The notes beneath the pieces are model-generated. The model was not told the origin of the DNA, made no database searches, and saw nothing but the letters and a program-made list of their open reading frames with translations. The translations under genes were made by a program, and so were the position numbers. A stretch of DNA of 35,601 nucleotides from an uncultured Myxococcales bacterium (GTDB taxonomy: Bacteria; Myxococcota; Myxococcia; Myxococcales; Myxococcaceae), in NCBI GenBank assembly GCA_903911905.1, contig CAIWFK010000346.1, forward strand, positions 1 through 35,601, read 5' to 3'. Below, in pieces: positions 2,507 through 35,601 of this stretch. How positions within the stretch are numbered: the stretch's first letter is position 1; every line of letters starts with the position of its first letter.

Positions 2507-5500
2507 ATGGCGACCAGTGAGCCGAGAACAGTACCGCGGTGGCGGAAATGGGCCGGGCGAATGCTGCTCGCCACGACCGGCGTGCTGCTCCTCGGCGTGG
2601 GCGCAGTGGCCTGGGTGCTTTCGAGTCTCGATGCGCCCTGGCTCAAGCCGCGTCTCCAGCGCGAGGTGAAGGCGGCCTCGGGGCTCGACGTCGACTGGTC
2701 GCAGCTCTCGCTGACCACGGGCGGGGTGGTGCTCGAGGGGCTGGTGGTGCACTCCCCCGAAGCCTTGCGCTCGACCGCGCCGGAGTTCCTGAAGGTCGCC
2801 CACCTCGAAGCCACGTGGACCCCAGGCCGGTTGGCGAAGGGCGAACGGCCGTTCCTCGACACGCTGACCATCACCTCGGTCGAGGTGCAGGTGGTCGACG
2901 ACGTGCAGCGCGGCGCCAGCCTTTCGCTGCTCTTTCCCCCAGACCCCCACGCGCCGCCGCCAAAGCCGGGCCCCGGACTGTCGCACACCCTCTCGGCGCT
3001 CTTCGCCGGCGCGCCCTTCGTCACCACCCTGGCGGTGCTCGAGGTCAAGGGCGGCTGGCAGAAGGTCGATGGCGGCAAGGTGGTCGATCGCGCGTCGGTG
3101 TCTGGCGCCTCGCTGTCGATGTCGGGGTGGAAGGCCCAGGTGAGCGGCCAACCGCTGGCGCTCGAAGCGAAGTCGCAACATGCCGCGCTGGCGCTGCTCG
3201 TCACCGCCGACCCGACCGCGAAGGGCGTCGCGCTGCAGGTGGAGTCGAGCGTGAAGTCGCAGACCTTCGAGCCCACGCTGAAGCTCGAACACCTCGCCAC
3301 CTTCGAGGCGGCAGCCACCTTCGATGCGCCCGCGAACGTGGTGCACCTGGCGCTCACCCGTGGGCAGGTGCTCGATGATGCCGCCACCGTCGAAGGCCGG
3401 GTCGAGCTGCTCGACGACGGGGTGGTGCTGGTGCCCTCGTTGGTGGCGAAGCTGGCGCTGCCTCCCCTGGCGCGCGACGCGGCGGTCTTCGGGGTGCCGG
3501 TGCAGCTCGAGGGCGGCTCGGCCGAGCTCAACGTGAAGGACGTGCAGGCGGCGCCAACCCTCGTGCTGCGGCCTGCAGGCTCGCTGTCGCTGACCGCCGA
3601 CGCTTCCACCGTCGCCTGGCGCCCGCAGGCCGAGCTCGGGCACGCGACCATCACCGCCCGACTCTTCGATCAGAAGGGCCAGCACGCGCTCTCGTTCTCG
3701 TCGCACCTGCGCGGCGTGTCGGCCAGCGGCGCGACGCTCGACGCCGTGACGCTCGAGGGCAGTGCCACCGAAGGCGCGAAGGGGTGGAAGGGCGCTGCCG
3801 ACCTCGGCGTGACCCAGCTCGCGGTCTCGGGGGCGAAGGTCGGCTCGGTCGAGCTCACCGCGAAGGGCGAGGGGCTGAAGTACGTGGGTGGCGAGGCGCC
3901 CCTCACCGGCTCCATCGAGCTCGACACCACGCTCCGTGGGGTCACCTACGCCACGCCCTCGCTCAAGGCGGTGCTCGAGCAACTGCACCTGGCGCTCGAC
4001 ACCGAACTCGACGGGCACCCGGTCTACGCCGCCAACGTCAAGCTCGATTCGCCCCTGCACCTGACCGGTGGCGATGGCCGCCTCTGGTTCGATGGCCCGC
4101 TCGCGCTCGAGGCGAAGGTGCACAAGGTGGCGCCGGCCTCGGAGTCGGGCGTGGTGTCGGCGAAGCTGACCGCCGGCGAGCTGGCGCTCACGCTCGAGGC
4201 CAACCGCACCTCGAAGGGCGGCGCGCACGTCGACGCCACGCTGACCTCACCCACGCTCACGCCCGTCGCTCCGTTCGTGGCGCTGCCCGCTGGCTGGTCG
4301 GTCGGGTGGAAGGGCACCTCGGCCACGCTCACCACCGCGCTCGACGCCGACGGGTTGCTGACCGGGCTGCCGCACGTCACGCACCTGACCACGCTCGAAC
4401 TCAAGGGGCTCGAGGCCGACTCGCCGAAGGGCCGACTGCTCGCGCCCACGCTCGCGCTTTCACTCGACGCGAAGGGCACCACCCGCACCCACGCCGGTAC
4501 GCTCGCGCTGCGTTGCGGCCACTGCGCCATGGGCCAGGTCGAGCTGGGTGACGAGCAGCTCGCCGCCACCTTCGACGTCGACCGCGCCGCGCCCACCGTG
4601 CACGCCACCATCGACGCGACCGGGCAGGGCCCGCAGGTCAAGGGGCAGCTCTCGCTCGAGGGGCGCACGGCCGAGCACCGCCTGGCGTTGAGCGCGAACC
4701 TGAACCTCGCCCGCCTGGCGGCGCTGGCGCCGTTGGTGGCAGGCACCGGCGTCGACGTCACCTCGCTCGAAGGCCACGTCACCGCCGCTGGCAGCGTCGA
4801 CCCCGATCGCGCCGACCGCACGCTGCAGGGGTCGGCCACCGCCGAGCTCGCCGGGCTCTCGTGGGAACAGGGCGAGCGCTCGGTGGACCTCGCGTCGCTC
4901 TCGCTGACCGCGAAGGTGGACACCACCGAGCAGGGGTTGCACCTGCAGGCCACCGCGAAGTCGAACCAGGTCGAGGTCGCGCTGTCCGAGAAGACCGCGA
5001 CGTTGAACCAGGTGACCCTCACCGTCGAGGGCCAACTGCAGCACGAGTCGCGCGAGGCGAGCGGCAAGGTGGGCCTCAGCATCGGTCAGGTCGAGCAGGA
5101 CTTCGCGCCCGATTACCCGGTGGGTGGGCTGCGCCTGGCGGCGTCGGGCACGCGCGACGAGACCGGGCTCATCACCCTGGCGCGCTCGACGCTGACCAAC
5201 GAGGCCGCCGGCACCGCGCTGTGGCTCGAGGGCGCGGTGGCTCCCGACCCCACGCATGCCAAGGCGTCGCTGCAGGTGCAGTTGACCCAGGACCTGGCGC
5301 GGGCCTGGCGCGACCCGAAGAAGTTCGAGGGCAAGGGGAGCGCGGTGCTCAAGCTGGGCGTCCACTCGGGCGACCTGCACGCCTTCAACCTGTCCGGCAG
5401 CCTCCTGCTCTCGGGGGCCGACCTCAAGGCGGGCACCACCATCGCGCAGGGCGTACAGGGCGAACTGCCCTTCTCGGTCGACGTGGTGTCCGACGACCAG

Positions 5501-6142
5501 GGCGTGCACCTGGTGCGCTCGGCCCGGGTGAACCCGTACGCGCTGCTGCGCTTCCAGGACCAGCACCCGCTCCTCAAGGACCAGAGCTTCCTGACCATGA
5601 AGTCGCTGACCACGCCCATGGTCACCGTGGCGCCGTTCGCGGCCAACGTGCAGTTGGCGCAGAGCGTGCTGTACGTCAGCCAGCTCGAGGCGGGCGTGCT
5701 CCAGGGCTCGGTCACCGGCGAGCTGGTGGTCGACATGAACGAGCAGAACCCCAAGGTGCGGGCCAACGTGCGCGCCACCGGCATCACGTCGGAAGAAGGT
5801 GACGTGTTCAGCGGCAACGCGGCGCTCGCGCTCTCGCTCAAGGAACACAGCATCGACGGGCGTGCCGAGGTGTTGCAGTTGAGCGGGCGGCAGTTGCAGC
5901 GCCTGCTCGACCTGCAGGACCCGCATCACACCTCGGCGTCGAGCAACCGCATTCGCGCGGTGCTGGCCATCGGTTACCCCGACCGCCTGCACATCGTGTT
6001 CAACCACGGCTTCGCCAACATGCGCGTCACCTTCGGAGGCGCGGCCAGCCTGGTGCAGTTGGACGAGCTGCGCGGCATTCCCGTGGAGTCGCTGGTCGAC
6101 CGCTACGTGTTCTCGAAGGACGACGAGGGAGATGGCTCATGA
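2507..6142 (+). CDS. AsmA/YdbH-like intermembrane transport protein
   Basis: The product has 1211 residues with one N-terminal membrane helix (about 19-40) after a basic segment. It is followed by the usual AsmA-family opening, DAPWLKPRLQREVKAASGLDVDWSQL. The rest is long and rich in beta-strand with low-complexity Leu/Ala/Thr character, as in AsmA, TamB and YdbH repeat-groove proteins. The C-terminus has NHGFANMRVTFGG and then DELRGIPVESLVDRYV, close to the C-terminal pattern of YdbH-type (PF11739-like) members. Family members bridge inner and outer membranes and move phospholipids. That activity is inferred here. Its stop overlaps the start of a DUF1318 lipoprotein gene by 4 bases (ATGA), which mirrors the enterobacterial ydbH-ynbE-ydbL arrangement. 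Confidence 0.85.
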   Translation: MATSEPRTVPRWRKWAGRMLLATTGVLLLGVGAVAWVLSSLDAPWLKPRLQREVKAASGLDVDWSQLSLTTGGVVLEGLVVHSPEALRSTAPEFLKVAHLEATWTPGRLAKGERPFLDTLTITSVEVQVVDDVQRGASLSLLFPPDPHAPPPKPGPGLSHTLSALFAGAPFVTTLAVLEVKGGWQKVDGGKVVDRASVSGASLSMSGWKAQVSGQPLALEAKSQHAALALLVTADPTAKGVALQVESSVKSQTFEPTLKLEHLATFEAAATFDAPANVVHLALTRGQVLDDAATVEGRVELLDDGVVLVPSLVAKLALPPLARDAAVFGVPVQLEGGSAELNVKDVQAAPTLVLRPAGSLSLTADASTVAWRPQAELGHATITARLFDQKGQHALSFSSHLRGVSASGATLDAVTLEGSATEGAKGWKGAADLGVTQLAVSGAKVGSVELTAKGEGLKYVGGEAPLTGSIELDTTLRGVTYATPSLKAVLEQLHLALDTELDGHPVYAANVKLDSPLHLTGGDGRLWFDGPLALEAKVHKVAPASESGVVSAKLTAGELALTLEANRTSKGGAHVDATLTSPTLTPVAPFVALPAGWSVGWKGTSATLTTALDADGLLTGLPHVTHLTTLELKGLEADSPKGRLLAPTLALSLDAKGTTRTHAGTLALRCGHCAMGQVELGDEQLAATFDVDRAAPTVHATIDATGQGPQVKGQLSLEGRTAEHRLALSANLNLARLAALAPLVAGTGVDVTSLEGHVTAAGSVDPDRADRTLQGSATAELAGLSWEQGERSVDLASLSLTAKVDTTEQGLHLQATAKSNQVEVALSEKTATLNQVTLTVEGQLQHESREASGKVGLSIGQVEQDFAPDYPVGGLRLAASGTRDETGLITLARSTLTNEAAGTALWLEGAVAPDPTHAKASLQVQLTQDLARAWRDPKKFEGKGSAVLKLGVHSGDLHAFNLSGSLLLSGADLKAGTTIAQGVQGELPFSVDVVSDDQGVHLVRSARVNPYALLRFQDQHPLLKDQSFLTMKSLTTPMVTVAPFAANVQLAQSVLYVSQLEAGVLQGSVTGELVVDMNEQNPKVRANVRATGITSEEGDVFSGNAALALSLKEHSIDGRAEVLQLSGRQLQRLLDLQDPHHTSASSNRIRAVLAIGYPDRLHIVFNHGFANMRVTFGGAASLVQLDELRGIPVESLVDRYVFSKDDEGDGS

Positions 6143-6675: not shown

Positions 6676-9600
6676 AGCGGCTGCTGCTGGCGCTGGTGGT
6701 GACCCTGGCGCTCGTCGCCTCGGCAGGGGAAGAGCGCGCCGAGGGCATCGCCGCGCCCAACCGCCTGACCGTGGGCCTGGCGGACCAGTTGCTGGGCCAA
6801 CTGACGCCCGACGCGGGGCAGCTCTATTACCTGTCGACCCTGCACACCTCGAGCGAGGTCGCCTTCGAGGAACCGCCCGGTGGTCGGCCCCGCGTGCTGT
6901 TCGACGAGAACGCCGACGTGACCTGGCCGCGCGTCAGCCCCGACGGCAAGCACCTGGCGTACGTGTCGCTGGGCGACCACGCCACGGGGCAGTTGTGCGT
7001 GCGCACGCTGCCGAAGGGCGAGCCGCGGGTGTGCCTCGAGACGCCGGTCGGCGCGCTGCAGGCGGAATGGATGAATGCCACCACCCTGGGCCTGGTGGTG
7101 CGCGACACGATTCAGGGTGACCTGCGCTCGCTGAAGGTCACGCTCGGCTCCAGCCTCACCGCCACGCCGCTGCCCTGGCGAAACCTGGTGAGCCCGGCCT
7201 TCTCGCCCGACGGGCGTTGGCTCATCTACGTACCGGTCTCGCGCTATTCCGAACAGGTGGGCCCGGGCTTCGCGGCCAGCGCCAGCGCACACCTCGAGGC
7301 GGTGCGGCTCGACCGACCTGGCGCCGCTCCAGTCGCCCTCACCATCGATGCCCCGGGCGTCACCGCGCAGCCCATGTTCTCGCACGACGGCAGGTGGCTG
7401 TACTTCACCCAGTTCGTGCACGACTCCGACGGCGACGGCCAGGTCGATGCGCTCGACCACGGCGTCATCTTCCGCGTGGCCTTCGACGGCACGAAGGACG
7501 ACGCGGTCGCCAGGCTGGCCACCACCACGCCCGAGCAGTTGTCCGACGGCACGTGGAACTGCCAGTACCCCGCGCCCTCGGCGTCGATGCTGGTCGCCAG
7601 TTGCTCGCAGAAGGACAACGTCGACGTCTACGAGCTGCCGATGGACGGCGTGGTGCCGCGCGGGTGGAAGCCCGATCGCCTGAAGGCCGAGGTCGAACTC
7701 GCGCCCGCGCAAGAGCAGCAACTGCTGCTCTTCCACCGGGTGCTCGAGAGCGAGCCGTCACTCTCGTCGCGCCATCGGGCCATGGTTCGCATGGTGCGGC
7801 TGCACCTGGAACTCGAGGACTTCGGCGCCGCGCGCTTCTACGCGAAGCGGGTGGGTGAGCTGGAAGACCCCGAGACCGCCGGCGTGTCGCGGCCGTTGCA
7901 GGCGCTGGTGGCGCTGCGCGAGGGCAAGGTCTTCCGCGCCAAGGGGCGGGTGGTGACGGGGTGGGGCGATCTGTTGGGCGCGACCCGCGCGCTGCTGACG
8001 CCGGGCGAGCACGACTCGTCGGCCGCGCGCGCCCTCTCGAAGGTCGTCGAGAGCGAGGCCTGGCAGTTGGCGGGTGACTTCGGCGCCAGCCGGGCCTCGC
8101 TGCAGGCCGCGGTCATCGACCAGAAGACGCCTCGCGCGGTGCTCGAGCTGTACGCCGACCGCGCCGACGCGCTCTTCCGCACGCTCGACGACGAGCCGGC
8201 GTTGCAGGCCGCGTTGCGCACCCTGCTCGCGGCCTCGCGCAAACCCGAGGTGCAGCTCGAGTACGCGCGGGCCTGGGCGCACAGCCTGATTCGCGGCAAG
8301 CCCTGGGCCGAGAAGGAAGCGCTGGTGGCGCGGGAACTGGAGCAATCGTCCGAAGGCTCGGAGGCCCGGTTCGCCCTCGAGCTGCAGCGCGCGTTGATGA
8401 TCATTCGCGGGCCCGAGGCGCCCGGCGCGCTTGAGGCGTTGCGCGCGCTGACCAGGGCGCAGACCCGGCCCGATCGCAAGAAGGCGATTCTGCTCGAGTC
8501 GACCGAACGCGCGTCCGACCTGGGCGCGATGGACCTGCTCGAGGCGCTGGTGCGCGACGCCATCGTCGACTTCCCGCTCTCGAGCAGCGACCGCCTGCGC
8601 GTCGAGCAGCAGTTCGCGGCCGTGGTGCTGGGGCGTGCGTATTCGCACCGCGCGAAGGGCGAGTACGACGCGGCGCTCGAAGACTTCGAGTCGGTGGCCC
8701 GGGAAACGCGATCGCTCGAGGCGCTGGTGGGCGCGCTCGACCTGCACCTGAAGGCCGGCATGAAGCCCGCCGCGTTGGTGGCGAAGATGGCCGGCGACCA
8801 GGCGATGGCTTCCGAGCTGCGCGCGTACGGGCAGGCCTGGGTGCTGCTGCGCTCGTTGCCCGACCTCGGCGCGGCCGAGCAGAAGAAGGTGCGCGAGCAG
8901 TGCTTCGCCCTGCTCAAGTCGGAATGGCGCGAGCTGCGTGGTCACCGCCTGGGGCAGGCGCTGTCGGGCGCGCTGCGCCACGAGGACTACCTGGCCGAAT
9001 GGCACTTGGACCAGGCCGAGCACGCCAACGCGAACTACCTGACGGCGCTGCGCATCACCCGCGGCACGCCCCGGCAGACGGCGATGGTGCTGGGGCAGGC
9101 GGGGCTGCTGCAGTTGGAAGTGGGGAACTATCGCCTGGCGCTGGCGCAGTTGGACGAGCGCGAGAAGTTTCCCTTCATCGACAATGGCTCGGGCCTGGCG
9201 GTGCAGTTGGGCCGGGCGCGCGCGTTGCTGCACGTGGGCCGAATGCCCGAGGCCGTAGAGACGGTCGAGGAAGGGCTGGCCATGACCACCAAGTCGCCCA
9301 AGCTGGCGCAGTGGCACGTGCTGGCGCTCGACCGCGCGGCGCTCATCAACCTGGCGGCCGACAAGTACGAGCGGGCGCTGGCGCTGTACGACGAGGCCAT
9401 TCCCTCGCTGCAGGGCCGCAACCTGCTGGTCGCGCGGTTGGCGCGGGCCGCGGCGGCGCTGGGAGCGAAGGCGCCCGAGCGCGCGCTGGCCGACCTCGAC
9501 GCGTTCGACCAGGGGTTCGCGAAGGCCGAGCTGCGGTTGCCGCACCAGACGGTCGAGCGGTCGACGCGCTCGTACCAGCTCATCTCGGCGGGTCTGCGGG

Positions 9601-10052
9601 CCAACGCGCAGCAGGCCCTGGGGCACACCGCCGAAGCGGCGACGGCGCTCGAGCACGCTCACGGGTTGCTGGCGGCGACGTTCAAGGAAGACGACCGCGA
9701 CGACGAGCTCAAGGCCCTGGCGTTGACCGAGGCCCGGCTCGGAGAGCTCAGTCAGCGCTCGTGGGCCGAGACCGCGGTCGCGCATGCCGACCAGTTCGCC
9801 GCTCGCACTGGCACGGCGCTGTCGGAAGAGCAGGTCGACACGGTGTGGCTGCAGGCGACGCTGTACCAGCGGCACGGGGAAAAGCTGCCGCCTGCCCTGG
9901 CCGAGCGCATGCGCCGACTGCTCGACGCGATGACGGTCTCGGCCGACCGCCTGTGGCGGGTGCACATGCGGTGGTTCGAGGTGGCGTTGGCGCTCGATGC
10001 GTTGCCGGTGGAACCGAAGGTCAGGTCGGCGGCGGCCGAGTCGGCGCAGTAG
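6669..10052 (+). CDS. Secreted TolB-like beta-propeller / TPR protein
   Basis: I place the start at the GTG at 6669, although the frame is open further upstream. That codon gives a clean signal peptide (MLKRLLLALVVTLALVASAGEE) and overlaps the preceding stop by 7 bases. The product has 1127 residues. Residues about 50-340 contain PD40/TolB-type blades: VSPDGKHLAYVS near 89, FSPDGRWLIYV near 178, FSHDGRWLYF near 237. One blade is followed by an Asp-rich, possibly Ca-binding DSDGDGQVD loop. The rest is all-helical and rich in TPR-like units (for example AYSHRAKGEYDAALEDFESV and ALINLAADKYERALALYDEA). It is probably a periplasmic or surface scaffold working with the two upstream envelope genes. 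No enzyme motif is visible. Confidence 0.8.
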   Translation: MLKRLLLALVVTLALVASAGEERAEGIAAPNRLTVGLADQLLGQLTPDAGQLYYLSTLHTSSEVAFEEPPGGRPRVLFDENADVTWPRVSPDGKHLAYVSLGDHATGQLCVRTLPKGEPRVCLETPVGALQAEWMNATTLGLVVRDTIQGDLRSLKVTLGSSLTATPLPWRNLVSPAFSPDGRWLIYVPVSRYSEQVGPGFAASASAHLEAVRLDRPGAAPVALTIDAPGVTAQPMFSHDGRWLYFTQFVHDSDGDGQVDALDHGVIFRVAFDGTKDDAVARLATTTPEQLSDGTWNCQYPAPSASMLVASCSQKDNVDVYELPMDGVVPRGWKPDRLKAEVELAPAQEQQLLLFHRVLESEPSLSSRHRAMVRMVRLHLELEDFGAARFYAKRVGELEDPETAGVSRPLQALVALREGKVFRAKGRVVTGWGDLLGATRALLTPGEHDSSAARALSKVVESEAWQLAGDFGASRASLQAAVIDQKTPRAVLELYADRADALFRTLDDEPALQAALRTLLAASRKPEVQLEYARAWAHSLIRGKPWAEKEALVARELEQSSEGSEARFALELQRALMIIRGPEAPGALEALRALTRAQTRPDRKKAILLESTERASDLGAMDLLEALVRDAIVDFPLSSSDRLRVEQQFAAVVLGRAYSHRAKGEYDAALEDFESVARETRSLEALVGALDLHLKAGMKPAALVAKMAGDQAMASELRAYGQAWVLLRSLPDLGAAEQKKVREQCFALLKSEWRELRGHRLGQALSGALRHEDYLAEWHLDQAEHANANYLTALRITRGTPRQTAMVLGQAGLLQLEVGNYRLALAQLDEREKFPFIDNGSGLAVQLGRARALLHVGRMPEAVETVEEGLAMTTKSPKLAQWHVLALDRAALINLAADKYERALALYDEAIPSLQGRNLLVARLARAAAALGAKAPERALADLDAFDQGFAKAELRLPHQTVERSTRSYQLISAGLRANAQQALGHTAEAATALEHAHGLLAATFKEDDRDDELKALALTEARLGELSQRSWAETAVAHADQFAARTGTALSEEQVDTVWLQATLYQRHGEKLPPALAERMRRLLDAMTVSADRLWRVHMRWFEVALALDALPVEPKVRSAAAESAQ

Positions 10053-10084
10053 GGCCGGGCGTGGCGTGCGTTGGTGCCGGCGTA

Positions 10085-10098
10085 TATACTTTTCGTAT
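10085..10098 (+). promoter_or_regulatory. vapBC promoter/operator candidate
   Basis: An A/T-rich island in very GC-rich DNA carries TATACT (10085-10090, one mismatch from the -10 consensus). It overlaps the inverted repeat ATAC-N5-GTAT (10086-10098). The vapB ATG at 10100 is only 10 bases downstream of the -10, so the mRNA would be leaderless or nearly so. No convincing -35 box is seen. VapB/AbrB-type antitoxins usually bind palindromes over their own promoter, so this is the likely autoregulatory site. Confidence 0.45.
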
Positions 10099-10099
10099 C

Positions 10100-10321
10100 A
10101 TGACCGTCGCCCGCATCTTCAAGCATGGAAACAGTCAGGCCGTTCGGTTGCCCAAGGAGTTTCGGCTCGAGGGCACTGAGGTCGAGATCTCGAGGGTTGG
10201 TCGGGTCGTCATTCTTCGCCCAACGAAGCTCAGCTACGCAGACGCACTCGCTGCGGTGGCCCGGTTCAAGGGCACGATGCGCCGTGATCAGGACGAGGAC
10301 CAGGACCGCGACTTCCGATGA
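10100..10321 (+). CDS. vapB: VapB-type antitoxin (AbrB/SpoVT fold)
   Basis: The 73-residue product begins MTVARIFKHGNSQAVRLPKEF, the classic swapped-hairpin AbrB/MazE DNA-binding domain of VapB antitoxins (KHGNSQAVRLPK motif). The domain spans residues 1-45 (VEISRVGRVVILRP is its second strand pair). The acidic C-terminal tail (DQDEDQDRDF) should wrap the VapC toxin and neutralise it. The ATG at 10100 is preferred because the domain begins there. The frame stays open far upstream only as the antisense-like shadow of the TPR gene. vapC follows 10 bases later. Confidence 0.93.
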   Translation: MTVARIFKHGNSQAVRLPKEFRLEGTEVEISRVGRVVILRPTKLSYADALAAVARFKGTMRRDQDEDQDRDFR

Positions 10322-10340
10322 TCTGGTTCCGATGATCTGG
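10313..10340 (+). repeat. Exact 14-bp tandem duplication at the vapB-vapC junction
   Basis: TTCCGATGATCTGG occurs twice back to back (10313-10326 and 10327-10340). The first copy holds the vapB stop (TGA 10319-10321) overlapping an ATG at 10318. The second holds the vapC ATG at 10332. Reading from the first ATG gives only MIWFR before a TGA (10333-10335) that overlaps the vapC start. Removing one copy would restore a simple ATGA overlap of vapB and vapC. Confidence 0.9.
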
Positions 10341-10742
10341 CTGCTCGACACCAACACCCTCATCTATTTCATCAATCGGTCCGTAGGGTTCGAGCGAATC
10401 GCTCGTCGAATTTCGGGTCGGTCTCCCGGTGAGGTGCGCATGTCGGCAATCACCCTGGCAGAGCTGGAATACGGCGCCGAGAAGAGTCGCCATCGAGAGC
10501 AGAACCGGTCGGCGCTCGAAGACGTGACGGCGTTGATCCAGGTCGACCCCTTCCCACAATCGGCAGCCCGTCACTTTGCGGAACTCAAGGCCGCTCTCGA
10601 CGCGAAGGGCCGTCCGACCAAACCGTACGATCTGTTGATTGGCGCCCACTCGCGCGCCATCGATGCGACCCTCGTCACCAAGGACACCGACGACTTCAGG
10701 CACATGCCCGGGTTGCGACTGGCCAATTGGCTCAAGCCCTGA
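10332..10742 (+). CDS. vapC: VapC-type PIN-domain ribonuclease toxin
   Basis: This 136-residue PIN-domain protein has the expected acidic residues for metal binding: Asp6 (WLLDTN), Glu44 (TLAELEYG), Asp100 (KPYDLLIGA) and Asp118 (TKDTDDF). The order and spacing match the FitB/VapC group (tRNA- or rRNA-cleaving endoribonucleases). The length is normal for the family. The start at 10332 gives MIWLLDTNTLIYF, the usual VapC N-terminus. It is translationally linked to vapB across the 14-base duplication. The gene converges on the next minus-strand gene with 4 bases between the stops. Confidence 0.93.
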   Translation: MIWLLDTNTLIYFINRSVGFERIARRISGRSPGEVRMSAITLAELEYGAEKSRHREQNRSALEDVTALIQVDPFPQSAARHFAELKAALDAKGRPTKPYDLLIGAHSRAIDATLVTKDTDDFRHMPGLRLANWLKP

Positions 10743-21633: not shown

Positions 21634-21875
21634 TGAGTCGACTCAATTTGACACTCCCCGAAGTGACGATGAAGGCGCTCAGCCGACACGCCGGCGGCCG
21701 GCCGACCGCCCGTGTGGCCCGCGAGCTGATCGAAGCCGGGTTGGCGCGCGAGGCGAGAGCGACTCGGTTGAAGCGCCTGGCGCGGGACTACGCCGCGAGT
21801 CGGGCTGACGCGCTCGAGGTGTTGGCCGACTTCGAACCGCTCGCTGGCGAGGTGCTGGGTGATGAGGCCGACTGA
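21633..21875 (+). CDS. RHH-type antitoxin for MazF-like toxin
   Basis: This 80-residue protein opens with a short beta-strand, LNLTLPEVTMKALSRHA, followed by RPTARVARELIEAGLARE. This is the ribbon-helix-helix pattern of CopG/MetJ-type antitoxins. The C-terminal part (SRADALEVLADFEPLAGEVLGDEAD) is acidic and should bind the toxin. The toxin ATG at 21862 lies inside the 3' end of this gene (14-base overlap), as is usual for toxin-antitoxin pairs. Confidence 0.8.
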   Translation: MSRLNLTLPEVTMKALSRHAGGRPTARVARELIEAGLAREARATRLKRLARDYAASRADALEVLADFEPLAGEVLGDEAD

Positions 21876-22233
21876 GCGGCTCGAGCTGAGGCGCGGCGAT
21901 GTGGTCTGGGTCAACTGCGAGCCCTCGGTGGGAGCCGAACCAAAGAAGCTTCGCAGCTGCGTGGTGGTCTCGAACGACGTCGCCAACCGCTTTGGGCAGG
22001 TCGTCACGGTGGTGCCGACCCAACGCTTCACCCCCGAGCGGAATGGGAGAGCGTTCATGGTCGACTTGCGGACGCCCCACTCGAACCTGAAGGCTGCGCG
22101 AATCGCCAATGCGTCGATGGTCACGACGTGGGACCGGGCCCGGCTCGTCAAGCGCGAGGGCCAGGTGACGAAGGCGACGCTCGCGCGCATCGACGAAGCG
22201 CTGAGGCTGCACCTGGGCCTCGACGAACTCTGA
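21862..22233 (+). CDS. MazF/PemK-family endoribonuclease toxin
   Basis: This 123-residue protein of the MazF/PemK fold has RRGDVVWVNCEP (first strand and loop), GAEPKKLRSCVVVSND, VVTVVPTQ and AASMVTTWDRARL-like segments (here ARIANASMVTTWDRARLV). MazF toxins cut single-stranded mRNA at short sequences. The usual K.RP in the second motif is K-L-R-S here, a small deviation. A GTG one codon upstream (21859) could also start it. It overlaps the antitoxin by 14 bases. Confidence 0.88.
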   Translation: MRPTERLELRRGDVVWVNCEPSVGAEPKKLRSCVVVSNDVANRFGQVVTVVPTQRFTPERNGRAFMVDLRTPHSNLKAARIANASMVTTWDRARLVKREGQVTKATLARIDEALRLHLGLDEL

Positions 22234-26636: not shown

Positions 26637-27149
26637 TCAGCGCGACATGCGCTGCAAGCGGCCGTGCAGGGTGCTGGCCACCAGGTAGACGAAGTGGCTC
26701 TCGCCGAAGGTCAGCTCGTCGAGGTCGCGCAGGGTCCACCGGTCCTTCATCTTCAGGCCGTTGATGAAGGTGCCGTTGACGCTGCCCAGCTCGCTCAAGA
26801 CCGCCTCTTCGCCGTCCCACACCACCGAGGCGTGGTGCTTCGAGACCGAGGTGTCGTGCACCACCAGGTCGCAGTCGGGTGAGCGGCCGATGGTCAACTG
26901 CATCGAGCCGTCGGGCAGCGGAGGCGGCAGGGTGGCCACGATGAGGTCGCCGAAGTCGACCGATGACGGCGCGCCGCGCAGGCGCATCGCGGGCTGCACC
27001 CGGGTTTCGGTCTGCAGGTTGTGACGAGCCTCGTCCTCGCGGCTGCCCGGAGGCGGTCGCTGCACGAGCGCGAACGGCCCCATCTGGGCGGCGAAGGTGT
27101 CGTCGTCGATTTGCCGGACCAGGTCGGCCAGCTCGCGCATCGTGAACAT
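26637..27149 (-). CDS. FHA-domain protein
   Basis: This is a 170-residue protein with one C-terminal forkhead-associated domain (about 80-160): LTIGRSPDCDLVVHDTSVSKHHASV, then GSVNGTFINGLKM. All core residues for phosphothreonine binding (GR-S, S-x-x-H, N-G) are present. The N-terminal half is a short acidic/basic linker (ELADLVRQIDDDTFAAQMGPFALVQRPPPG) that resembles N-termini of myxobacterial FHA proteins. It probably reads Ser/Thr-kinase signals. The stop is 10 bases from the stop of the GGDEF-like gene on the other strand. Confidence 0.9.
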   Translation of the reverse strand: MFTMRELADLVRQIDDDTFAAQMGPFALVQRPPPGSREDEARHNLQTETRVQPAMRLRGAPSSVDFGDLIVATLPPPLPDGSMQLTIGRSPDCDLVVHDTSVSKHHASVVWDGEEAVLSELGSVNGTFINGLKMKDRWTLRDLDELTFGESHFVYLVASTLHGRLQRMSR

Positions 27150-27161
27150 CTCGGCCGCAGT

Positions 27162-28958
<1,797 letters not shown>

Positions 28959-28983
28959 TGGCTCCAGCTTCCCTTGCTTCAGA

Positions 28984-29009
28984 GCCTCCGGAAATCCCGG
29001 GCCGGTTCA
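28984..29009 (-). repeat. IS3 terminal inverted repeat (intact end)
   Basis: Read on the minus strand this end begins TGAACCGGCCCGGGATTTCC and continues GGAGGC. This is the usual outer end of IS3-family members in high-GC proteobacteria and myxobacteria. It lies 26 bases upstream of the OrfA start. The partner repeat is absent. The bases just outside (29010 onward, CTT) could be half of a target duplication, but the other copy is lost. Confidence 0.8.
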
Positions 29010-29010
29010 C

Positions 29011-30309
29011 TTCCGGCACGGCGTCCTCGGCGCACTCACGCAGGCGCAGCTCGAGCGCGGCCAACTGCGCGCGGCGCTGGCCGGCCTGTCGACGCAGCGC
29101 TTCCGGCCGCCGAAGTCGAAGACGACGCGCAGCTACTCGGTGGCCACCCTCGAGCGCTGGTACTACGCCTTCCGGGCGAAGCGCCTCGACGGCCTCAAGC
29201 CCGCGCCGCGCAGCGACAAAGGCCGCGCGCAGGAACTCACACCCGAGCAACGGCAACTCCTGTGCGACATTCGCCGTGAATTCCCGTCGGCCTCCGCGTC
29301 GCTCATCCTGCGCGCGCTGGTGGCCGCCGGCCGCTTCAACGGCGCGGCCGTCTCGGCCACCACGGTGCGCCGCCTCTTCGTCGACGAGGGGCTCGACCGG
29401 CTGTCGCTACGCGCCGGCGACGGCGGGAAGACGCGGCTGCGGTGGCAGGCCGCGCGGCCGGGTGCACTGTGGCACGGCGACGTGTGCCACGGGCCGGCCC
29501 TCGTCATCGACGGGAAGACGCGGCCCTTGCGCATCCACGCCTTGATGGACGACGCCTCGCGGTACGTGGTGGCCCTCGAGGCGCACCACACCGAGCGCGA
29601 GGTGGACATGCTGGGCGTCTTCGTCCGCGCGCTGCGCCGGCATGGACCGCCAGACGCCCTCTACCTCGACAACGGCGCCACCTACCGCGGCGAGACGCTC
29701 GCCACCGCCTGCGCTCGGCTCGGCGTCTCGCTGCTCCACGCCCGGCCGTACGATGCGCCAGCCCGAGGGAAGATGGAGCGCTTCTGGCGCACGCTGCGCG
29801 AAGGGCTGCTCGACTTCAGCGGCGGCCTCACCTCGCTCCACGACATCAACGTGCGGCTGCTCGCCTTCCTCGACGTCCACTACCACCAGGCGCCGCACGC
29901 CGACCTCTACGGCCGAGCGCCGAAATCCGTCTTCGACGCCACGCCGCCGCGGGTGGACGCCCTCGAAGAGAGTGGCCTCAGGGCGGCGCTCACCACCCGC
30001 GTCAGGCGCCGAGTGCGGCGCGACAGCACCGTGTCCATCGGCGGCAAGGACTACGAGGTGGACGGCGCCCACCTCGCGGGCCGACTCGTCATGCTGTGCC
30101 GTTGCCTCGTCGACTTGAGCGAGATGCCCTGGGTGGAATTCGAGACTCGCCGCGTGGAGGTGCGGCCCGTCGACGCGGTGAAGAATTCCCGTCGGCCCCG
30201 ACGCCGTCACACCGCCGAGGCCGCGCCTCTACATCCGGCCTTCAATCCACCTCAGGCGCTCCTCGACAAGGCTCTCGGTCGCCGCGGCGCGAAGGGCGGT
30301 GACGCATGA
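29011..30309 (+). pseudogene. TniA/Mu-type DDE transposase, 5' end removed by IS3
   Basis: This is 432 codons of an integrase-core transposase. Its first codons at 29011 (FRHGVLGALTQAQLERG) directly follow the IS3 end. The HTH_23-like domain (SVATLERWYYAFRAKRLDGL) and a second HTH (SASLILRALVAAGRFNGAAVSATTVRRLF) precede the rve domain. Its catalytic residues are the Asp in WHGDVCHGP, the Asp in LYLDNGATYRG and the Glu in ARGKMERFW. The C-terminal part is a beta-barrel (IGGKDYEVDGAHLAGRLV). About 15 start codons seem lost. The downstream ATPase is coupled (ATGATG overlap), as in Tn5053/Tn7-like and Mu-like systems. An N-terminal deletion makes function doubtful. Confidence 0.8.
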
Positions 30310-31130
30310 TGCCCGCCTACGTCAGCCACTTCGGCCTGAAGCAGGCACCCTTCACGAAAGAGGTCGCCGACGCCGACCTGTGGCTGCCCGCCTCGAAGAC
30401 GGCCCTCGTCGATGACCTGGTGGAGGCCGTATCCGAGAGAAGCAGCGTCGTCCTCGTCGGCGAGCCCGGCGTCGGGAAGACGTGCGTGCTGCGCGCCTTG
30501 CGCCACCGGCTGCCCCAGGCGGGCTTCCGACTGACGTACTGCCACAACGCCACCCTCGGCCGTCGCGACTTCTACCGGCAGCTCTGCCTGGCCCTCGGCC
30601 TGACACCCAACGCCACGGCCGCGTCCGTCTTCTTCTCCGTCTCGGCGCACGTCGAGGAGCTCGGCCGCGAGCGCGTGCACCCCGTCTTCCTCCTCGACGA
30701 GGCCCACCTGCTGCACCAGGACACGCTCGACCACCTGCACATCCTGCTGAACTACAGCTGGGACTCGAAGGCGCTCTTGTCACTCATCCTCGTCGGTCTG
30801 CCCGAGCTGGACGACAGGCTCGCGGCCCGCAGGAACCGAAGCCTCTTCTCGCGACTCGGCCGGCGGCTGCACATCTCCCAGCTGACGCCCGAGGACACCA
30901 CCGAGTACCTGCGGCTGCGCCTCGAGCGCGCTGGGTGCGAGCGCGAAGTGTTTCCCTCGGACTCCATCGCCATGCTGCACGAGGCCGCCACCGGCGCGCT
31001 GCGCGACATCGACAGGCTCGCGACCGCGGCCCTCCGAGAGGCCGCGCGGAAGAAGAAGAAGCTCGTCGAGCGCGACGTCATCGCCCGCGTCCTCGACGCC
31101 GAGGCCACTCGGCCCGGTGACGAGACGTGA
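30306..31130 (+). CDS. ExeA/TniB-like AAA ATPase of the transposition module
   Basis: This is a 274-residue AAA+ ATPase of the ExeA/TniB group. Its N-terminus (YVSHFGLKQAPFTKEV) is the ExeA-like opening. Walker A is GEPGVGKT (52-59) and Walker B is PVFLLDEAHLL. The sensor and arginine elements follow (NRSLFSRLGRRLHISQLTPEDTTEYLRLRLERAG). These ATPases select target DNA and stimulate the partner transposase (MuB, TniB, IstB, TnsC). The ATG at 30306 overlaps the transposase stop; a second ATG at 30309 is possible. It is intact. A GTGA overlap links it to the third small gene. Confidence 0.9.
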   Translation: MMPAYVSHFGLKQAPFTKEVADADLWLPASKTALVDDLVEAVSERSSVVLVGEPGVGKTCVLRALRHRLPQAGFRLTYCHNATLGRRDFYRQLCLALGLTPNATAASVFFSVSAHVEELGRERVHPVFLLDEAHLLHQDTLDHLHILLNYSWDSKALLSLILVGLPELDDRLAARRNRSLFSRLGRRLHISQLTPEDTTEYLRLRLERAGCEREVFPSDSIAMLHEAATGALRDIDRLATAALREAARKKKKLVERDVIARVLDAEATRPGDET

Positions 31131-31635: not shown

Positions 31636-32226
31636 CTACTTCGGAAGCCGGCTACACATCATGCGCACCGCGATGCGCATCTTCTCCCGGTACGCTTCGG
31701 AAGTGGCGACCTGCTGCTTCACTCCGACGGACGTCGCGAACAGATTTTCGCCGAGGTCCTTTGCCGAGAGCCCCTGAGCCTTCCATGCCTCAGCGATGCC
31801 AGAGCTGCGGATCAGGCGCACGACGTCGTTCACCAGCTCGCGGTCGAGCTCGCGGATGCTCTCGCCGAGGAGCGCGACGGCCGTCTCCATCAGCTCGCTC
31901 ATGTACTCCGAGCCCACCTGACCCACCAACGAGCCGTGGGTTGCTTCGAACGCCCCCAGGATTCGCTCCTCTGCGCTTTGCTCTTCTTTCGCGAGGGCCG
32001 CCTTGCGCGCGCGTCGCATCGACTCGGCCTGCGCGATGACAGCCGCCTTGAAGAGTTCCTCCTTCGTTCGATGGTGCAGGTAAAGGCCTTGGCGCGAGAG
32101 ACCGGCAGCACGTGCAAGGTCATCCATCGACGTCTTCTTGAAGCCGTAGCGAAGGAAGACGCGCATCGCGGCCCCCAGGATTGCCGCGCGCCGCGCCCCA
32201 CCAGCTTCGGTCGAATCGGTGCTCAT
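31636..32226 (-). CDS. TetR-family transcriptional regulator
   Basis: This is a 196-residue TetR repressor. The N-terminal HTH is ARRAAILGAAMRVFLRYGFKKTSMDDLARAAGLSRQGLYLHHRTKEELFKA (about 12-63). The rest is the all-helical ligand-binding domain with no recognised ligand. It diverges from the SDR/propeller/SDR operon, with 271 bases between them, and is likely its repressor. A 13-bp perfect palindrome covers its start codon, an obvious autoregulation site. Confidence 0.92.
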   Translation of the reverse strand: MSTDSTEAGGARRAAILGAAMRVFLRYGFKKTSMDDLARAAGLSRQGLYLHHRTKEELFKAAVIAQAESMRRARKAALAKEEQSAEERILGAFEATHGSLVGQVGSEYMSELMETAVALLGESIRELDRELVNDVVRLIRSSGIAEAWKAQGLSAKDLGENLFATSVGVKQQVATSEAYREKMRIAVRMMCSRLPK

Positions 32227-32253
32227 CGTTCGACCTCTTCGAGGTCGAACGAT
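32225..32253 (+). promoter_or_regulatory. 13-bp perfect palindrome at tetR start
   Basis: ATCGTTCGACCTC (32225-32237), then TTC, then GAGGTCGAACGAT (32241-32253). The arms are perfect. Its outermost bases overlap the tetR start codon (ATG 32226-32224). It is a candidate TetR operator, but it could also form a hairpin in the tetR mRNA leader. Confidence 0.6.
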
Positions 32254-32379
32254 TCGAACTCCGCGAAGGTCACACGCCCTTCCTCCTGTTCGGGAACGCC
32301 ATCGAAGGCCGTGTCGTGCATCGCGTGCTCCAGCTACCAGTGGTCTGCTCTTTCAGAGTTGGCACTTGAAAACCACGTT

Positions 32380-32391
32380 GTCAACGTTGAC
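32380..32391 (+). promoter_or_regulatory. GTCAACGTTGAC palindrome in tetR/SDR intergenic region
   Basis: This is a 12-base perfect palindrome. Its halves (GTCAA / TTGAC) recur in the larger inverted repeat 70 bases downstream. It is a candidate regulator-binding site. The sequence differs from the palindrome at the tetR start. Confidence 0.45.
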
Positions 32392-32461
32392 CACCAACCC
32401 GCTCGAAGTCGAGCAGTCCCCGGTACGCGTTGCGCTCGAACCCGCCAAGAGTAAGACGGAG

Positions 32462-32487
32462 TTGACAATTAATGCCGATATTGTCAA
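32462..32487 (+). promoter_or_regulatory. TTGACAAT-N10-ATTGTCAA operator overlapping -35 of SDR operon
   Basis: The two 8-base arms (32462-32469 and 32480-32487) are perfect inverted repeats. The left arm contains a consensus -35 (TTGACA). The right arm overlaps the -10 region at about 17 bases spacing. The first SDR ATG is at 32498. Binding of a dimeric regulator here would shut the promoter. The A/T-rich context stands out from the GC-rich window. Confidence 0.6.
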
Positions 32488-32497
32488 TTACGTCCAC

Positions 32498-33358
32498 ATG
32501 GACGAAAACAACAGGCGAGGACGCCCGAACAAGACGGTGCTCGTTACAGGGGCGTCTTCTGGCATCGGCAAGGCGTCCGTCGAGGCGTTGCTTGGGTGCG
32601 GTTACACGGTCTTTGCGGGCGCGCGGCGGGTGGACCGCATGGACTCCCTCGCCAAGGCAGGAGCGCACTTGGTGGCACTCGATGTGACCGATGATGCTTC
32701 GATGAAGGCTGCGGTCGACGCCGTCCTGCGCGAGGCCGGTCGGATTGACGTGCTGCTCAACAACGCTGGATACGGCGCGTATGGCTCACTGGAGGAGGTG
32801 CCGCTGGATGAGGGACGACGCCAGTTCGACGTCAACCTCTTTGGGCTTGCCCGGCTGACGCAACTGGTGCTCCCGGCGATGCGCGAACAGGGCGCCGGTC
32901 GCATCGTCAACGTGTCGTCGAGCGGCGGTCAGTTCGCGGGGCCGTTTGGGACCTGGTACCACGCATCGAAATTCGCCGTCGAGGGCCTCAGCGACGCGCT
33001 GCGAATGGAGCTCCACCCCTTCGGCATCGATGTGGTCGTGATTCAGCCCGGTGCCATCGTCACCGAGGGGAGCGCGATTATTCGCGGCGGGCTGATGAAG
33101 TACTCCGGCGACGGTCCGTATCGGGTCGGGGCGCGCGCGCTCGACAAGATGTTGGCCTCGTCGGACAAAGGCTCACTTCCATCTCCTCCAGCCGTCGTCG
33201 CCAAGACGATCGTGAGGGCAGTCCAGGCTCGCAAGCCAAGGACGCGCTACGCGACCGGCGGTGGTGCGGGTCTGCTGCTCTTCCTGCGCCGCCTTCTCAC
33301 CGACCGTGCGTTCGACGCGGTGATGCGGATGTTCTTGATGCAAGGAGCGAACTCATGA
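32498..33358 (+). CDS. Short-chain dehydrogenase/reductase (first of two)
   Basis: This is a 286-residue classical SDR. It has TGASSGIGKAS (cofactor loop), LDVTDDASM (Asp binding), NNAGYGAYG, NVSSSGGQ (catalytic Ser region) and YHASKFAVEG (Tyr-x-x-x-Lys). Arg residues after the second strand (GARRVDRM) suggest NADP preference. The ATG at 32498 is preferred, because earlier codons cover the operator. The substrate is unknown. It overlaps the propeller gene by 4 bases (ATGA) and is a close paralogue of the second SDR. Confidence 0.92.
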   Translation: MDENNRRGRPNKTVLVTGASSGIGKASVEALLGCGYTVFAGARRVDRMDSLAKAGAHLVALDVTDDASMKAAVDAVLREAGRIDVLLNNAGYGAYGSLEEVPLDEGRRQFDVNLFGLARLTQLVLPAMREQGAGRIVNVSSSGGQFAGPFGTWYHASKFAVEGLSDALRMELHPFGIDVVVIQPGAIVTEGSAIIRGGLMKYSGDGPYRVGARALDKMLASSDKGSLPSPPAVVAKTIVRAVQARKPRTRYATGGGAGLLLFLRRLLTDRAFDAVMRMFLMQGANS

Positions 33359-34503
33359 GCCGCCAGCGAATTCTCCGTGTCCTCGGTGGTACGTTCATCG
33401 CGCTGCTCTCGACCATCGTGATGGGGCTGGTGATGCTCAAGCTCTTCTACGGCCGCGGCACGCCGTACCCCGACGTGAGCGGCGTTCCGCTCGTCGCTGA
33501 GCCAGAGGTCGTCGCCGCCGCGACCCTGGAATTCCCCCCCGGGAACGTCGCCGTCTCGCGCACTGGGCGGGTCTTCTTCAACCTGCACCCAATCGCGCAT
33601 CTGTACCGCTTCACCGATGTCTTCATGTTCGAGCTGGTTGACGGGAAGCCGAAGCCCTACCCCGACGCCGCATCGCAGGCGGACCTTGGCTTCGTGTTCG
33701 GAATGACGGTGGACGGCCAAAATCGATTGTGGCTGACAGCACCAGCGGTTCTCGACCGGGAACGGACGCGGCTCATCGCGTACGACCTGACCTCGAACAC
33801 GAAGCTCTTCGACCATGAGCTCGACCCCGGCGTCGCGCGATTCGGCCAGGACCTGCGCGTCACGCCGGACGGCAAGACGGTCCTGATCGCGAACGCGGGC
33901 GCATTCCGGTTCACCGACGCCTCCCTGGTCATCGTCGACATCGCGACCTGGAAGGCGCGCTCTGTTCTCTCTGGAGACCCAGCTACGCAGGCTCACGACT
34001 GGCTCATGACCGTCGGCAACGCCCCCTACCGGGTCGCCTACGGCCTCTTGAACTTCCAGGGGGGCCTCGACGGCATCTCGATTAGCCCTGACGGACACTG
34101 GGTCTTCCTCGCCCCTATGAGCAACGACCTGTTGTATCGGGTACCGCTGGCGGACGTGCTCGATGCCTCAATCTCTGCGGCGAACCTCTCCGCGCGTGTC
34201 GAGCGCGTGGGCAAGAAGCCGCTGAGCGACGGCATCGAGGCGGCCCCCGACGGAAGCGTCCTCGTCACCGACGTCGAGCACGGTGGCATCGCGCGCGTCG
34301 ATGCGCACGGCGGCCTTCAAACGCTGGTGAAGCTCGGCGGGGTCTCGTGGGCCGATGGTGTCGCCGTCGGGCCTGACGGCATGGCGTACTTCACCGACAG
34401 CGCGATCCCCGTGTACATCGATCCCTTCGTACGGCCTCCGGCGCTCGACCGACTTGCAGCAGGCCGCCCGTACCACCTCTATCGCTTCCGCTTGCCCCAG
34501 TGA
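33355..34503 (+). CDS. Major royal jelly protein/SMP-30-like beta-propeller
   Basis: This is a 382-residue protein with an N-terminal membrane anchor or signal (ALLSTIVMGLVMLKLFY) and a propeller. Blades include FPPGNVAVSRTGRVFFNLHP, FVFGMTVDGQNRLWLT, VTPDGKTVLIAN, GGLDGISISPDGHWVFLAPMSNDLLYRVP and GIEAAPDGSVLVTDVEHGGIARVD. This matches bacterial members of the royal-jelly/Yellow family, related to SMP-30 lactonases. It is probably periplasmic. Lactonase or tautomerase activity is inferred. It sits between two cytoplasmic SDRs in an ATGA-coupled operon. Confidence 0.88.
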   Translation: MSRQRILRVLGGTFIALLSTIVMGLVMLKLFYGRGTPYPDVSGVPLVAEPEVVAAATLEFPPGNVAVSRTGRVFFNLHPIAHLYRFTDVFMFELVDGKPKPYPDAASQADLGFVFGMTVDGQNRLWLTAPAVLDRERTRLIAYDLTSNTKLFDHELDPGVARFGQDLRVTPDGKTVLIANAGAFRFTDASLVIVDIATWKARSVLSGDPATQAHDWLMTVGNAPYRVAYGLLNFQGGLDGISISPDGHWVFLAPMSNDLLYRVPLADVLDASISAANLSARVERVGKKPLSDGIEAAPDGSVLVTDVEHGGIARVDAHGGLQTLVKLGGVSWADGVAVGPDGMAYFTDSAIPVYIDPFVRPPALDRLAAGRPYHLYRFRLPQ

Positions 34504-34558
34504 CAGCGCACAGCTCGCGCCAAACGGGCGCGCCAATGAAGTCTCCAACGGAGTGAAC

Positions 34559-35398
34559 ATGACTGCGTCCGAAAAACGAGTGGTGCTGATTACTGGTGCG
34601 TCGTCAGGGATGGGAAAGGAGACCGCCATCGCACTCGCGCGCAAGGGGCATGTCGTCTACGGCGCTGCCCGACGCGTCTCGATGATGGGGGACCTGCTCG
34701 CGGCGGGTGGCTACGCAGTCGAACTCGACGTCACGAACGAGACGCAGGTGCGAAGCGTAACCGCTCGCGTTCTCCAGGAGGCTGGCAGGATCGACGTCCT
34801 CATCAACAATGCGGGATACGCCGTCTACGGCGCCGTGGAGGACACCAGTCTCGACGACGCGCGCCGGCAGTTCGAGGTGAACCTCTTCGGCGCTGCGGCC
34901 CTGACAAGGGCGGTGCTCCCGGCCATGCGCGCGCAACGAAGCGGTCGAATCATCAACATCACGTCAATGGGCGGGAAACTCCACTCACCACTCGGCGCCT
35001 GGTACCACGCATCGAAGCACGCGCTCGAGGGCTGGTCCGACTGCCTGCGCGTTGAGACGGCGATGTTCGGAATCGACGTCGTCATCGTCGAGCCAGGTAT
35101 CGTCGCGACGGAGTTTGGAAGTGTTCTCGAACAGCCGATGCTCGCGCGCTCAGGACCTGGTGCCTACGGCGCGATGACCAGGTCCGTCGCTGAAGCGACG
35201 CGCGCGTCATACGACAAGGGTGGTGCGTCCCCCGCGTCGGTCGTCGCAAACACCATCTCGAAGGCGATTTCCGCCAGGAGGCCGAAGACACGCTACGTCG
35301 TCGGTAAGTACGCACGGCCGCTCCTCTTCATGCGGCGCTGGCTCAGCGATCGGCTTTTCGACGCGATCATCATGAGCCAGGTGAAGCGGCTTACCTGA
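34559..35398 (+). CDS. Short-chain dehydrogenase/reductase (second of two)
   Basis: This is a 279-residue classical SDR with TGASSGMGKET, LDVTNETQV, NNAGYAVYG, NITSMGGK and YHASKHALEG. It starts at 34559, with a GGAG ribosome site 6 bases before the ATG. It lies 55 bases after the propeller gene and is very similar to the first SDR in every core motif, so the pair probably arose by duplication. Both have the GAARR/GARR segment that suggests NADP. The substrate is unknown. Confidence 0.93.
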   Translation: MTASEKRVVLITGASSGMGKETAIALARKGHVVYGAARRVSMMGDLLAAGGYAVELDVTNETQVRSVTARVLQEAGRIDVLINNAGYAVYGAVEDTSLDDARRQFEVNLFGAAALTRAVLPAMRAQRSGRIINITSMGGKLHSPLGAWYHASKHALEGWSDCLRVETAMFGIDVVIVEPGIVATEFGSVLEQPMLARSGPGAYGAMTRSVAEATRASYDKGGASPASVVANTISKAISARRPKTRYVVGKYARPLLFMRRWLSDRLFDAIIMSQVKRLT

Positions 35399-35487: not shown

Positions 35488-35601
35488 CAGGGTGTTGAAA
35501 AACTCGCCCTGGACGATCGACGAGGCGCCGGCCGCGTGATCTTGTCGGCGCATGCGCGGGCCGAAGAAGACGCAGCAGTCGATGCTGAGCTTGAGAACGC
35601 C
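35488..35601. mobile_element. Possible insertion-sequence end (cut by window edge)
   Basis: The sequence CAGGGTGTTGAAAAACTCGCC at 35488 is typical of the outer end of several transposase-bearing IS elements (the reverse reads GAGTTTTTCAACACCCTG). On the minus strand a protein-like frame precedes it (LKLSIDCCVFFGPRMRRQDHAAGASSIVQGEFFNTLL). It could be the tail of an IS whose body lies outside the window. Family not determined. Confidence 0.35.

Follow-up and report, generated by a model that had tools for sequence, protein, structure and literature searches.

Proteins of the MRJP/Yellow/dopachrome conversion enzyme family (PF03022; structures 5yyl, 7asd, 9w1k, and 3q6k) adopt a six-bladed β-propeller fold, as does the bacterial protein 2qe8, and the SMP-30/gluconolactonase proteins (SGL, PF08450) fall in the same fold class. 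Bacterial Yellow/MRJP relatives carry no annotation beyond 'L-dopachrome tautomerase-related' or 'major royal jelly family', and in the literature searched, which comprised content outside subscription, we found neither a role for them nor their operons. Here we describe a cassette in a 35,601-nt stretch of DNA (the window), which is one whole contig (CAIWFK010000346.1) of an uncultured Myxococcales bacterium with a genome of 7.6 Mb in 907 contigs. In this cassette, a gene for a membrane-anchored propeller lies between two short-chain dehydrogenase/reductase (SDR) genes, SDR1 and SDR2, and a TetR-family regulator gene diverges from them. The propeller shares its six-bladed fold with 2qe8 and the Yellow/MRJP proteins, and is structurally closer to these than to the SGL proteins; however, MRJP/Yellow proteins are secreted, whereas the window propeller is membrane-anchored and stays below the PF03022 gathering score. 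Both SDRs belong to NCBIfam NF004826/PRK06182 ('oxidoreductase'), whose members are followed by an AraC-type regulator gene in the majority of annotated plasmid records examined, while those of the window are accompanied by TetR and the propeller instead.

We regard the cassette as a kind of TetR-controlled catabolic or detoxification operon. Specifically, we see about an even chance that it was acquired, is repressed by TetR, and serves to process a small compound of carbonyl-, quinone- or lactone-like type, with the SDRs acting in the cytoplasm and the propeller in the periplasm. A previous sequence-only reading of this DNA knew of no described pathway with such a layout, and none was found in the literature searched; nor was the combination found there as a regulated unit recurring in several forms.

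Genes and control region of the cassette

All four genes proposed by the sequence-only reading are present, and every one is a member of a known family. The genes and the inverted repeats between TetR and SDR1 are as follows.

31636–32226, minus strand: TetR-family regulator, 196 aa, divergent from the cassette (Pfam TetR_N, 7.8e-15)
32227–32251: inverted repeat CGTTCGACCTC-TTC-GAGGTCGAACG (arm 11, gap 3), directly upstream of the TetR start, candidate operator
32380–32391: perfect 12-bp palindrome GTCAACGTTGAC, short on its own
32462–32487: inverted repeat TTGACAAT-N10-ATTGTCAA (arm 8, gap 10), candidate operator over the SDR1 promoter
32498–33358, plus strand: SDR1, classical SDR, 286 aa (NF004826/PRK06182, 378.9 bits)
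33355–34503, plus strand: membrane-anchored six-bladed β-propeller, 382 aa (AlphaFold, Foldseek, and profile matches)
34559–35398, plus strand: SDR2, classical SDR, 279 aa (NF004826/PRK06182, 397.8 bits)

The SDR1 and propeller genes overlap by 4 nt, and a strong AAGGAG site stands upstream of the propeller gene. SDR2 starts 55 nt past the propeller end and has its own GGAG site. Since the SDR1 ATG at 32498 is preceded by no evident Shine-Dalgarno sequence, this start may be leaderless; an alternative start, TTG at 32462, was set aside because it lies directly on GGAG with zero spacing. The TetR protein matched no NCBIfam equivalog above cut-off.

The TetR–SDR1 intergenic gap spans 271 bp, and the palindromic sites suggested earlier beside the divergent TetR gene proved to be inverted repeats beyond chance. 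Specifically, the 11-bp arm at 32227–32251 was matched in 1 of 1000 dinucleotide shuffles, and 0 of 500 shuffles yielded a disjoint pair of repeats whose arms reach at least 8 bp, as 32227–32251 and 32462–32487 do. The short palindrome at 32380–32391 has the half-site TTGTCAA in common with the repeat at 32462–32487, which ends 10 bp ahead of the SDR1 ATG. A simple scan for a sigma-70 promoter in the gap found none, so that the promoter is placed at 32462–32490 only presumptively. The divergent TetR, the significant palindromes, and a like arrangement at unrelated loci together support inducible control, and we regard both the layout and the inducibility of the cassette as well supported.

The two SDRs match Pfam adh_short (5.7e-50 and 1.6e-47) and both exceed the curated cut-off of 305 bits for NF004826. 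The classical motifs TGxxxGxG, NNAG, and YxxxK, as read from the translations, are intact in both (TGASSGIG, NNAG, and YHASK in SDR1). The sequence-only reading had called them a paralogous pair; they are indeed homologous, with 51% identity, but they are not sister genes and did not arise by duplication within the locus. In the tree, SDR2 is placed together with proteins from Rhizobium, Paraburkholderia, Acinetobacter, and others (support 97/96), and SDR1 less firmly with SDRs from Streptomyces and Cupriavidus (88/82 and 88/87). A local tandem duplication was rejected by the approximately unbiased (AU) test, which gave a p-AU of 0.0017 for the joint grouping, and an earlier tree with long outgroups showed the same picture. 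By these trees, SDR1 and SDR2 appear to have been brought together, or to have separated long ago.

The propeller protein matches Pfam SGL at 2e-4 (21.5 bits) and MRJP at 0.0035 (17.2 bits) without reaching the gathering thresholds of 26.3 and 19.8, respectively, and its relatives score as well as 1.7e-23 on PF03022. Among 18 members of the subfamily, 17 match PF03022 and all 18 match SGL at E ≤0.05. Against PDB, a profile of 15 family members matches 2qe8 (1.7e-69), MRJP1 (1.6e-11), and dopachrome conversion enzyme (DCE, 2.1e-9). The AlphaFold model (mean pLDDT 92.9) comprises a helix at residues 3–32 and a propeller at 53–379, and Foldseek ranks 2qe8, 3q6k, 9w1k, and 7asd before the lactonases 2p4o, 3dr2, and 7ris, the high ranks including 2qe8, sand-fly LJM11, Aedes DCE, and a royal-jelly filament protein. 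The modelled fold places the protein in the Yellow/royal-jelly/SMP-30 assemblage. The N-terminal hydrophobic segment is kept in 18 of 18 aligned relatives, many of which have basic residues before it, and for this reason the propeller domain is predicted to be periplasmic. The earlier description of a membrane-anchored propeller of the royal-jelly/SMP-30 type, with an extracytoplasmic role, is supported.

Related loci in other genomes

We searched most of 1,990 whole genomes for the propeller, some genomes being searched with the SDR only, together with one collection, the contigs of 84,980 species, for which conserved patterns were used, making that part incomplete. A single-protein scan of the genome collections with the propeller returned no relatives, and a profile scan gave 80 loci; the propeller loci fetched fall into 32 clusters at 75% identity. 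Members of the anchored subfamily are rare and unevenly distributed, with 3 of 388 Rhodobacterales and 2 of the 247 genomes in the acidobacterial set passing strict limits. As to whether the set is unique to this genome, the exact four genes were seen only here, but TetR, a reductase, and an anchored propeller occur together again in Acidobacteriota and Rhodobacterales. A TetR gene heads a divergent unit in 3 of the 32 clusters (the window and L227 excluded), against 4 TetR-like genes among 367 background genes (~1.1%); the binomial p of ~0.005–0.007 is rough, given the small background set and the incomplete independence of the clusters. Additionally, the window propeller falls in a fully supported nine-member clade, in which reading of the loci found a divergent TetR or LysR gene for five of the nine.

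An acidobacterial metagenome-assembled genome (locus L088) carries the propeller (7899–9101), an SDR (9098–9970), and TetR (9967–10635) on one strand, with a 4-nt overlap at each junction. Its SDR scores 310.7 bits on NF004826, above the cut-off, and is 51% identical to SDR1. This operon has the propeller subfamily, SDR subfamily, TetR, and 4-nt overlap of the window; it differs in its propeller–SDR–TetR order on one strand and in its single SDR.

In Jannaschia aquimarina (L069) and the Rhodobacterales genome G1412 (L227), TetR is divergent from an extended SDR, which is followed by the propeller. The two extended SDRs are 72% identical, that of Jannaschia matches Pfam 3Beta_HSD as well as Epimerase, and an IS3-like element adjoins the Jannaschia copy. 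Both loci resemble the window in the divergent TetR, the reductase followed by an anchored propeller, and a palindrome in the gap; unlike the window, they have an extended (Epimerase/3Beta_HSD) rather than a classical SDR, no second SDR, and a different operator. In the alphaproteobacterial genomes G292 (L180) and G443 (L184), TetR is directly divergent from the propeller, which in L184 belongs to the window propeller's own clade. The TetRs of L069, L227, and L180 are 42–53% identical, and all three gaps hold the palindrome TGAACG-N14-CGTTCA, while the Jannaschia propeller is only 34–36% identical to those of L227 and L180, which are 64–66% identical to each other. One TetR/operator type thus seems to have kept a propeller while the propeller lineage changed, and this apparent retention speaks more strongly than any other observation for the propeller as part of the regulated function. 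Because one TetR/operator type appears to control propellers only ~34–36% identical, the reductase, the propeller, and TetR look functionally linked.

In genome G086, of the window's order, TetR diverges from an SDR that shares 58% identity with SDR1 and precedes an MBL-fold hydrolase standing in place of the propeller; the palindrome in this gap has 12-bp arms. The pattern ACCG-TGGTC-CCTAATA is common to the propeller promoter region of L088 (7871–7901, TTGACTAGCGACCGCTGGTCACCTAATATG) and the SDR promoter region of G086 (L215, 6914–6955, TTGACAGAGAACCGATGGTCTCCTAATAAG), as if a single TetR type served both loci. Two loci among the closest propellers (L066 and L067, ~48%) have a divergent LysR gene.

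Soluble MRJP homologues of sphingomonads and Rhizobium adjoin genes for SDR, OYE-type flavin oxidoreductase, VOC, DJ-1-like, ABM/quinol monooxygenase, and formaldehyde dehydrogenase proteins, and the SDR lies directly downstream or upstream of these propeller cousins. Two sphingomonad plasmids (L149, 3530–11449; L150, 97–7991) carry a block of LysR, DJ-1-like, VOC, OYE-type oxidoreductase, MRJP propeller, SDR, ABM, and formaldehyde dehydrogenase genes, and the propeller–SDR pair is found again at ~24 further loci. In the Myxococcus group (L058–L065), genes for a GH15/trehalase-like enzyme and a zinc glucose dehydrogenase form a conserved block with the anchored propeller.

Mobile surroundings

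The cassette has mobile elements on both sides.

27688–28958, minus strand: IS3-type orfA/orfB, left neighbour (HTH_Tnp_1 4.6e-14, rve 3.1e-24, HTH_21)
~29146–31130, plus strand: second left mobile element, with DDE (rve) transposase domains and an AAA_22 ATPase (HTH_32, rve, AAA_22)
~35488–35601, plus strand: left end of an insertion sequence (CAGGGTGTTGAAAAACTC...), running off the contig end and repeated elsewhere in the genome

HTH_32 and rve of the second element fall in the open reading frame 27097–30309, and the AAA_22 ATPase occupies 30306–31130 (7.6e-25). The stretch from ~35488 has 99–100% matches at three further places in the genome (four copies in all), each preceded by CTAA/CTAG; its reading frame begins with residues (MRGPKKTQQSMLSL) that resemble IS1182-type transposases. 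A search around the cassette for large inverted repeats as transposon ends gave only imperfect matches. The GC content is 63–66% in the cassette versus 67–72% across the rest of the window, and GC at third codon positions (GC3) is 0.78–0.84 in its genes versus a mean of 0.88 (sd 0.05) in the genes below 27 kb. This difference in composition is modest and consistent with acquisition. The lower GC and the elements on both sides agree with the proposal of acquired cargo beside mobile elements, to which the right-hand element at the contig end, absent from the sequence-only reading, is added.

Elsewhere in the window, a PemK/MazF-like toxin gene (21859–22233; Pfam 1.7e-21) lies between an OsmC gene and GlmU/GlmS-like genes, and a 1211-aa open reading frame (2507–6142) has no Pfam match and a hydrophobic N-terminal segment.

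Proposed function and alternatives

In the mechanism that we propose, TetR would repress the divergent SDR1–propeller–SDR2 operon, and probably itself, from the intergenic palindromes, and a small inducer bound by TetR would release the operon. SDR1 and SDR2 would act as cytoplasmic NADP(H)-type carbonyl/alcohol oxidoreductases. The propeller, anchored by its N-terminal helix with the six-bladed domain presumably in the periplasm, may serve as a tautomerase, lactonase or binder, by analogy with its Yellow/MRJP/SMP-30 relatives. Together, they would most likely act on a reactive small molecule of carbonyl-, quinone- or lactone-like type, and either detoxify it or open it up. The sequence-only reading had suggested a small pathway in which a hydroxyl or keto compound would be oxidised or reduced in the cytoplasm and hydrolysis or isomerisation would take place outside; its chemistry, like ours, is hypothetical. 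The pairing of reductase and propeller in several forms points to a shared substrate class, and carbonyl or quinone chemistry is suggested because varied reductase types were recruited (a classical SDR in the window and L088, an extended SDR in Rhodobacterales) and because of the gene company of the soluble propeller cousins.

Several observations weigh against this proposal. The window TetR is only 27–38% identical, over local matches, to the TetRs of the other loci, and the window palindromes do not match theirs. In the genomes and contig collection searched, the exact four-gene set was not found outside the window genome; neither SDR nor TetR lies within 1.5 kb of the propeller gene in most of the subfamily, and the propeller loci fetched from the window's phylum with 1.5-kb flanks gave no SDR or TetR match. 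Additionally, the carbonyl/quinone context was seen in soluble proteins, on another branch of the propeller family, the Myxococcus relatives adjoin GH15 and glucose dehydrogenase genes instead, and we found enzymatic or binding data for no member.

The alternative that survives best, which we nonetheless consider rather unlikely, is a lactone/aldose pathway, in which the anchored propeller would work as a lactonase in the periplasm, with the SDRs acting on the corresponding hydroxy/keto compound. It keeps weight because the GH15–glucose dehydrogenase–propeller neighbourhood of the Myxococcus orthologues points to a sugar lactone, and it agrees with the SGL match of every subfamily member and with the lactonases lower down in the Foldseek ranking. 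However, the nearest structures are 2qe8 and the Yellow/DCE/MRJP proteins rather than lactonases, and a sugar gene is seen in neither the window cassette nor the L088 and L069 units. It is unlikely, and less probable again, that unrelated genes merely gathered between mobile elements, with SDR1 and the propeller alone co-transcribed: the different branches of the two SDRs, the single occurrence of the exact set, the flanking insertion elements, and the occurrence of the propeller without SDR/TetR partners in most genomes would fit such chance neighbours, but the 4-nt SDR1/propeller overlap, the significant palindromes, and the separate TetR–SDR–propeller units of Acidobacteriota and Rhodobacterales argue otherwise. 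Quite improbable is a signal- or steroid-like catabolic module, in which TetR senses a hydroxylated secondary metabolite that is bound or presented by the propeller and oxidised by the two SDRs one after the other, since uptake, CoA-ligase, and ring-cleavage genes were not seen nearby, even though the two SDRs, being of distinct lineage, could each attack a different position, the SDR of Jannaschia matches 3Beta_HSD as well as Epimerase, and Yellow-related sand-fly proteins are reported to bind bioamines (PMC5094789).

Returning to the TetR-repressed unit, we tentatively suggest, as a possibility on the doubtful side, that the cassette represents an undescribed, repeatedly assembled regulon class, combining TetR, an NAD(P)H carbonyl reductase, and an anchored Yellow/MRJP-type propeller, the propeller being a periplasmic tautomerase or lactonase that would act alongside the cytoplasmic reductase. 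If true, such a class would provide the first functional setting for the anchored bacterial relatives of insect Yellow/royal-jelly proteins. With a regulator and a candidate operator beside the propeller, its role becomes testable, and the inducer of TetR would name the compound class.

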